A DNA stretch of 64,000 nucleotides from Lutjanus erythropterus (Eukaryota; Chordata; Actinopteri; Lutjaniformes; Lutjanidae). Numbering within the stretch: position 1 is the first letter of the stretch; each line of letters begins with the position of its first letter. The notes beneath the pieces are model-generated. The model searched no databases. It was given only the letters and a program-made list of their open reading frames with translations, and was not told where the DNA came from. The stretch lies in assembly GCA_020091685.1 (NCBI GenBank), contig CM034608.1, positions 7,289,751 through 7,353,750 on the forward strand. Direction: 5' to 3'. Both the position numbers and the translations under genes were made by a program. Below are positions 9,501 to 12,500 of the stretch, one piece after another.

Positions 9501-12500
9501 AAGTTTGTGTAAAGCCATAATAAATGTGTGTTCAGAGTTTGTCACACCACAGAATCATTAAAGGAATCACTAAGTATAAAAAGATTAGGTCTTAAAATCT
9601 TCATGGGGCTCATATAGTGCTGACTGACCACAGCTTTGGTACATCACTGAACCGTATTTCAGGTCCGCCCAAAAAAAACAGAACACAGAATTTGTTATTC
9701 AGCACTGCGTAGTCTCTTTATAGCAGCTGTTTTCTAATATGTATAATGTGTTTAGAAGAAAAACGTAAATGCTTTTACTCCTGTTTGGAACTAGTGGTGC
9801 ACTTCAGCCTCTTGTGGATGAAATGAATGTTACAAAAACAAACAAACAAAAAATACCTGCCAAAACTTTTTGTCCACCTCTTTCACAGTTAAAAAAAAAG
9901 AAATTAAAAAGATAGCTATTCTTATGCCGTAAAACACAGGAGAGAAAAACATGTAGATCAGAATTACAGAATGGATCACCAGAATTAGTATTTTCACTTG
10001 CCTCACAGGGCTTCCATACAAACCACTTCAGCTCCAAAATCATGAATGTTGAAGTCACGCTTTGCTCTGCTCTCACAGTCTCAGTCCTCGAAGCAAAAGC
10101 TCAGCCAAGAAAACTGAAAGCAACAAAAACAAAATCATGAAAATCAATACATGAAATGAAAATCAATACATAAAGCAAAGGTAGCTGCAGGGCAGAAAGA
10201 AGAGCGGTAGCTGCTGTTACATTTAGTTTCCTTTGTTGAATTACATTGAACAGATGAAACATGGACAAAAGGATTTGATTGTGGCGATGGAGGGCTGAGG
10301 CTGTTGCTTTCTGTGTGGCGAAGTCGGTCTCTCTCTTTGTGTGACTTTCTTTTCATGTGATCATTAGTTTTCTCTTCTGTCTCTTCTCTCTCTTGCTTCC
10401 TTTCTGTTTTTTTCCTCCTTTGCTGTTTCCATCTTCTGCTGTGTCTCTCCTGGCGCCTGTGCCCTCACTCTGCCCCCTCTGTCACATCTGACACCTTTAG
10501 ACGGTAAGTGGCTTTTCTTGTTGGCCGCTGATTTTGTCGATTCCCCCCGTCAGTGTGCTGTTCTCTCTCACAGTCTTATACTGAAGTGTCTACCTACTGA
10601 ATCCTCAACGTGACATGATAGAAAAGAAAAATACCTATTAAAATGTTAAACGAGACTGAGTCATCTACAGCTATTTCAGTTGTGTAAGACCTGACATGAA
10701 AGTGTACACTACAAAAAATTGTTCAATTTAACAAGTTGTTTAGTTTTACAATAGGCCCAGTTGCTGTGGTTTGCATCAAAATTACAAGATTGTGCAATAA
10801 AAAATAAATAAATACTTATGACAAAGTCCTTGAAATTGGTTGGTTTGTATTACATCTAGATTTCATGATCCCCCTGGTGCGCTTTGTGCTTGTTAAACAA
10901 TATTTCAAGTAATAAATCTTGGTAAGACTGACATTTCATGCAGAACAAATGCAACAACTTAACCCTTAAACTTAAAGTGGGTAGTTCAGATTGTAGGAAG
11001 CACTTATCAATAGTCAGTTTATTATCTACAGTAGAGGGCGGTCGACACAGCCCCAGTTTGGAGAAGCAGGAGAACCAGTGTAGGGAGCAAAACACATTTT
11101 AGCTACCTGAAAACAACCCATTTGAAAAATTTCAGCTTCAACTTTAAGTGTACACTATATTTAGAATATTTTCACAGTTTTACCTTGCTGTGAGGCAGGC
11201 TTTTCTGACGTTAAACGTCTGACGTCTGATATATAAGCAAAATATCACTCCCTCCAAACCAGCTGGACTCCACTGATAAAAGTATTCTTACCTCCTAGAA
11301 CACGGGACTTGCTGGTCTACTGCTGCCTCAGTAGGTCAGCTTGTTTGTGTTATTGTGTAACATTGGTGTTTTAAAATGTTACTTCAGATTCACCGAAGTC
11401 ACACAGTAACGCAAACAAACTAAAGCACCAAGGCAGGTGGTAGACCAGCATGTCCTATAGTCTGCAAAGTAAACTTCCCAGAGGAATCTGGATGGTTTGG
11501 AGAGAACAAATATCTGGCTTGTATAATAGCAGTGTCCCGTCAGAAAAGGCCGTCTGACAGCAAGTTGAAGCTGTAAAAATTCTAAACATACACTTAAAAT
11601 GATATAGATTTTCTTAGGTGGCTGAAGTGTGTTTTGCTGCTGGTGTTTTTGTCCACAGCAGCACAGAGCTTAGCTTCCATGTTGGTACTTCTGCTGCTTC
11701 TTCTTGTGCCGACTGCCATCTATTGTAGGTTATAGACTTACTATTGACAAGTACCTCGTACAACTCCACTTAAAATAATCCAAACTATCCCTTTAACATT
11801 AGTCATTTAATAATAATAATAATCTGGTTTCCATCAAAATCTTGAACTAAGACAGTATGATTTAAATAGTAGAAAAAATGACTGATGGATTGATTATTGA
11901 TTGATGATTCTACAGCATTCTTGAAACTGATTGGTTTGCATTGCAACTAGATTGCATTTTCTTGCAGAACAAGTGCAAGAATTGAAATGAAAAATTTAAA
12001 GGAAAGAATATGAAAAAAGTGATTTTTATAGAAGCGATTCAGCCTCTGTTGAATCTGTGTTGCTCGGATTTAGGCAGCAAAGTAGAATTAGATGGAATAA
12101 TCAGACTCTGTTGTATTTGGGTCAAGTTTTGAGTGAAATCTTTGTCATCTTCTTCATTTATCTCTCTGTTCCACTTTGATTTGATATACAGATAATGTAT
12201 GAGAATTATTTAAAGGGAGCCTCTGTAACTTCAGCTGAACAGTGGCCACTATAGCCACTGATGTAATTAACAGTGGCACAAGTGGAGAAAATTCATAAAG
12301 AGTCAGTGAGCTGTCTCTGTTATATAACTTCCTCAGCTATATCCACATTAAGTATTTTTTTTCTTTCAAGAGTTGCGTAGTATGGCTTCAAATCATTTTA
12401 TCTAGGGTATGTTATAATGCCTCACAGAGTCTCTGTTGTCTCTCCCAGGACAAGATGATCAACCTGAGTTTCTTGAGGCTGTTCAGAGCGGCTCGTCTCA

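Follow-up and report, generated by a model that had tools for sequence, protein, structure and literature searches.

Introduction

Mammalian Cacna1b exon 31a (e31a) has the nucleotides GAAACG, and mammalian CACNA1A has an equivalent of this exon, the NP exon. A genome duplication has taken place in fish. A short insert in the IV S3-S4 linker affects activation kinetics (PMC10657410); the same paper describes an alternative exon at the e31a place in Drosophila, with none seen in Aplysia. According to PMC5633781, Nova2 favours skipping of mammalian e31a; PMC10657410 gives the direction of this effect otherwise. The other known short CaV2 cassette, exon 24a (e24a) in III S3-S4, reads SSTR in alpha-1A and SFMG in alpha-1B (PMC10657410).

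Exons of a single codon have already been described in mouse Ncam and Drosophila TnT (PMC8042270), and microexons shorter than 8-10 nt are picked up less reliably by the aligners in common use (PMC7821500). In flies, eMIC-dependent exons combine a very weak 3' splice site with a long AG exclusion zone, UGC in its vicinity, a UCUC-rich tract and a strong CUAAY branch point; mammalian targets are said to share this pattern, although neither weakness of the 5' splice site nor unusual strength of the downstream branch point extends to them (PMC8797185). For another fish, Betta splendens, cacna1bb and cacna1ab have been reported to undergo two or more splicing events (PMC9150285). The excerpts of PMC13281805, PMC7821500 and PMC9150285 concern other calcium-channel splicing or none at the e31a site. 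Among the titles and abstract openings listed in a literature search, none describes an exon of 3 nt in a CaV2 gene of a fish, though such an exon may be listed without comment in the supplementary tables of microexon studies. While 3-nt exons and e31a are themselves known, what appears to be new here is a candidate 3-nt e31a in one CACNA1B copy of a fish beside a candidate 6-nt one in the other.

Results

The window, a 64,000-nt stretch of Lutjanus erythropterus DNA (C18:7289751-7353750 within a 937.6-Mb genome), harbours a fish gene for the N-type channel. Eight concatenated window exons (329 aa) scored 763.6 bits against the human CaV2.2/alpha-1B chain in the PDB, 735.7 against alpha-1A and 665.4 against alpha-1E, and alpha-1B was the sole PDB chain matched by the C-terminal exon at E <= 0.01 (89.2 bits). 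Judged by these matches, the window gene is CACNA1B. The features surrounding the proposed microexon are as follows.

8524..8607, + strand: exon 31 (IV S3), ending ...ILVTEIK, phase 0; best PDB match human alpha-1B
8608..12448, + strand: host intron 31-32, 3,841 nt
10368..10498, + strand: AG-free C/T-rich tract, 131 nt, with many UCUC/CUCU and 5 TGC words
10499..10500, + strand: acceptor AG, weak by local PWM (3.6)
10501..10503, + strand: candidate 3-nt microexon ACG (Thr), putative e31a ortholog
10504..10511, + strand: donor gtaagtgg, strong (PWM 10.3)
12449..12565, + strand: exon 32 (IV S4), beginning DKMINLSF, phase 0

Exon 31 ends at 8607 (GAAATTAAG/gtaagag, the slash marking the boundary) and exon 32 begins at 12449 (cccag/GACAAGATG). 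The human N-type chain reads ...VTEIAETNNFINLSF... and carries Glu-Thr (ET) where the window exons leave a two-residue gap in the alignment, which falls at the 31/32 junction to within two residues either way; this junction is thus the e31a site. An earlier note on this DNA had proposed a lone ACG at this position, and it is indeed present between the two exons, preceded by ...cacctttag. Inclusion would give the junction ...GAAATTAAG-ACG-GACAAGATG..., and its translation agrees with the single added Thr that the note had predicted.

The donor had been called excellent, and its score bears this out. The description of the acceptor as good was overstated: it scores 3.6 vs 7.6-11.6 at six neighbouring exons, with splice-site weights that are textbook frequencies rather than MaxEntScan. 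The last 150 nt before ACG have a pyrimidine fraction of 0.79, the highest among 2,554 150-nt segments on both strands (the segment itself being the one that reaches this value), and contain 15 UCUC/CUCU motifs, as many as 0.2% of segments hold, counting this one. The long C/T-rich tract of the earlier note is therefore real, while the TGC words to which it drew attention are unexceptional, since five in 150 nt is a level reached by 8% of segments; the nearest lie at -30 and -41 from the acceptor. A branch-point-like CTCAC with its A at -34 is a possible branch point, and a CTGAC at -10 probably lies too close to serve as one. No CTAAY was found in the last 150 nt before ACG. Compared with SRRM3/4 (eMIC) microexons, the site agrees in its weak 3' splice site, its AG-free zone and its UCUC content. 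It does not clearly agree in UGC, which is not enriched, and it lacks the fly CUAAY. In most respects the site is built like an SRRM3/4-type microexon, and this anatomy suggests that inclusion may be neuronal and SRRM3/4-dependent.

Within intron 31-32, 13 microexon candidates were obtained with an acceptor PWM of at least 0, a donor of at least 3 and a length of 3-30 nt in multiples of 3. ACG ranked first (13.9; runner-up 11.7), and the 12 others, with donors of at most 7.4, were rejected. The sum of acceptor and donor scores does not by itself single out ACG, which comes third among the 29 candidates of 3 nt that the + strand of the window holds; the - strand holds another 31. An AG-free zone of at least 131 nt precedes only 5 of the 8,271 AGs on both strands of the window, and among these five a donor above 3.1 follows within 30 nt only at the ACG site. 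When both strands of 207,412 bases of this fish, in 20 pieces that come mostly from CaV genes, were scanned for a zone of at least 100 nt and a donor of at least 8 with 3-30 nt between, two matches were returned: ACG and a 6-nt candidate in the C9 gene copy described below. Block-Markov simulation of 150 windows, scanned on both strands, gave none that held a zone of at least 130 with a donor of at least 10 and 3-12 nt, and five that held a zone of at least 100 with a donor of at least 9 and 3-30 nt. The AG-free zone as such is unsurprising because the tract is so pyrimidine-rich; a 131-nt stretch of its composition was AG-free in 8,999 of 20,000 shuffles. The window sequence alone thus provides only moderate evidence against chance.

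One of the other four window zones of at least 131 nt, 168 nt long, precedes the acceptor at 24847 of an exon-37-like exon. This exon (24847 onward) and another at 22230-22326 look like a mutually exclusive pair 37a/37b.

A genome search with exon 32 gave 13 scored matches, six of them CaV2-type at 92-100% identity: C18 (the window), C9, C19, C3, C13 and C7. C9 was assigned as the second CACNA1B copy on its PDB match (alpha-1B 507.9 vs alpha-1A 492.5 bits). Its intron 31-32 is 5,097 nt long and holds 18 candidates with an acceptor of at least -2 and a donor of at least 3. The second of these by score, ctag/ACTACG/gtgagtgact, is 6 nt long and would encode Thr-Thr (acceptor 2.3, donor 10.0). It follows an AG-free zone of 181 nt, with 18 CU motifs, 5 TGC and a pyrimidine fraction of 0.79, and is the only candidate in that intron with a zone of at least 50 and a donor of at least 5; the first by score, of 12 nt, has a zone of 2 nt. 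Inclusion would give ...GAAATCAAT-ACTACG-GACAGGCTG..., translating to VTEIN-TT-DRLLNLSF, compared with one Thr in the window copy.

The weightiest evidence for ACG as a microexon is this putative counterpart in the fish's own genome. The two candidates share the intron, the exon end ACG/GTRAGTG and a long AG-free CU tract, but the C9 candidate differs in its 6 nt and Thr-Thr, its gtgagt donor and its diverged flanks. The earlier note had suggested looking for an ag-ACG-gtaag block conserved among relatives. In the one relative compared, the C9 copy, the ACG/GTRAGTG end and the AG-free CU tract are kept, whereas the exon is the 6-nt ACTACG and the flanks beyond are not kept. Observed flank scores between C18 and C9 were reached by 1,308 of 2,000 shuffles for +7..+40, 360 of 2,000 for +7..+24, 1,569 of 2,000 for -60..-3 and 25 of 2,000 for -200..-21. 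Outside the core the intron flanks of the two copies are barely alike, which counts against the microexon reading of ACG.

An intron-to-intron BLAST of C18 and C9 gave no match at the microexon flanks; it returned one block, which is similar to a CACNA1A (C3) intron as well, with a short adjoining piece. A repeat-like stretch at window 11013-11701 is similar to blocks in the channel introns of C9 and C3. Another, at about 9932-10018, has 39 further matches in the genome among 40 scored, at 74-85% identity.

From their junction sequences, C19 and C3 (NNFINLSF) were taken as CACNA1A copies and C13 and C7 as CACNA1E copies. Intron 31-32 of the two CACNA1A copies holds 14 and 26 candidates, none of them in frame with a zone of at least 50 and a donor of at least 5; since mammalian CACNA1A has an equivalent exon, this speaks against the microexon reading of ACG. 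C3:14286 has a zone of 87 and a donor of 8.6 and was rejected because its 11 nt are out of frame. At the e31a place the CACNA1E introns are 270 and 414 nt long and hold 0 and 1 candidates, the one containing a stop. The comparison is limited to paralogs in one species; viral and prokaryote collections yielded no fish relative, and 24 prokaryotic records at 23-49% identity were left out.

Exon 24a served as a control. A looser rule, set after seeing examples (zone of at least 75, CU motifs at least 7, donor at least 4, 3-27 nt, multiples of 3), gave 8 matches in 210,505 bases, all 8 on the gene's strand: the two e31a candidates, four e24a candidates, C3:19754 and L043:2637. Applied to further DNA (20 kb more, of the CACNA1B pair), it passed one of six listed rows, the C18 e24a. 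The rule thereby finds an e24a candidate in five of the six CaV2 paralogs; the candidate in the sixth, C9, lacks a CU tract. The candidates are listed below.

C13 and C7: 12 nt, both reading NVMG, upstream of exon 25
C3: 12 nt, GAGCACCACCCG, STTR by hand reading
C19: 9 nt rather than 12, adding GGG, tract intact
C18: GAGCCTTATGGG, SLMG by hand reading, followed by gtaatgcc; L062:1303 (G000 C18:7274765)
C9: GAGCTTCATGGG, SFMG as in mammalian alpha-1B, followed by gtaatgcc; L063/L047 region

Their AG-free zones span 77-286 nt. The C9 candidate contains no CU motif and does not pass the looser rule; it was chosen from the unfiltered rows because it resembles the C18 e24a. Exon 24 itself lies in the scanned DNA of C9, C13, C7 and C19 only; the C3 and C18 candidates were placed by sequence and by position upstream of exon 25. 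The 9-nt candidate of C19 is perhaps another one-codon shrinkage. Of the two remaining matches, C3:19754 was rejected, as only a 48-nt intron would remain before exon 32. L043:2637-2648 (C10) is a candidate of 12 nt, ACATTTGGAAAG, whose AG-free zone measures 135 nt; it lies downstream of an exon-32-like exon of another channel-like gene.

Discussion

The ACG of the window resembles mammalian Cacna1b exon 31a in gene, junction, loop and last residue, Thr. It differs in length, the human insert having two residues and the window candidate 3 nt and one residue. As an exon of 6 nt ending in Thr is not what is found here, we class ACG as a putative shortened ortholog rather than a typical e31a. Its size, which the earlier note had placed among the smallest possible, is indeed 3 nt, with precedents: the microexons of mouse Ncam and Drosophila TnT are likewise single-codon and in frame, in unrelated genes.

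An origin by chance, in which a pyrimidine-rich intronic tract happens to be followed by an accidental AG and GTAAGT, draws on the two 3-nt + strand candidates that outscore ACG and on the ease with which shuffled tracts stay AG-free. We nevertheless regard it as very improbable, given that like anatomy and the same exon end occur in the same intron of C9 and that none so strong occurs elsewhere in the bases scanned. It is somewhat less improbable, though still unlikely, that ACG is the 3-nt remnant of an ancestral 6-nt e31a that lost its function in the window copy and is no longer spliced. ACG is half the size of the C9 exon, its acceptor is weak, and beyond the core the flanks of the two copies have little in common. 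The acceptor of the C9 candidate is equally weak, however, so that a weak acceptor at ACG does not mean decay. Furthermore, the donor stands at full consensus (gtaagt), all 131 nt are still AG-free and the length keeps the frame, and the e24a candidate of the C19 CACNA1A copy is likewise short with its tract intact.

We also considered that the exon might be longer (10368-10503) or that the site might serve recursive splicing, and give these almost no weight. The donor would be common to both exons, and the next AG upstream is at 10366-10367, but an exon starting there would be 136 nt long and would shift the frame between two phase-0 exons, and it was rejected on these grounds. A recursive site needs adjoining AG and GT; here 3 nt lie between them and the intron is just 3.8 kb, and this reading was likewise rejected. 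Taken together, the evidence supports the earlier note's interpretation of ACG as a microexon at the e31a position, and we consider it highly probable that 10501-10503 is a real cassette microexon, the ortholog of mammalian Cacna1b exon 31a, shortened in the window copy.

If ACG is such a microexon, the ancestral e31a was probably 6 nt long, because the C9 copy has a 6-nt candidate and mammals have two residues; the window copy would then have been cut to 3 nt, most simply via a 3-nt deletion inside the exon. Neurons probably recognise the exon through the SRRM3/4 (eMIC) machinery, with the CU-rich AG-free tract as its target, as the anatomy suggests, and with the strong donor compensating for the weak acceptor. 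When the exon is included, the IV S3-S4 loop would be longer by one Thr, which, by analogy with the mammalian insert, would tune activation kinetics.

On balance we favour the view that the two N-type copies encode different e31a inserts, T vs TT, so that at least four IV S3-S4 loops would be available to neurons (0 or 1 residue from one copy, 0 or 2 from the other). Codon loss from a microexon would then be a route of diversification after gene duplication, with the 9-nt CACNA1A e24a of C19 as a possible second case. The AG-free CU tracts, together with a paralog, can expose exons too small for ordinary annotation. If spliced, ACG would give a presynaptic calcium channel an exon of one codon that switches one residue in its voltage-sensing part, and would offer a natural single-residue test of the role of the IV S3-S4 loop in setting activation kinetics.
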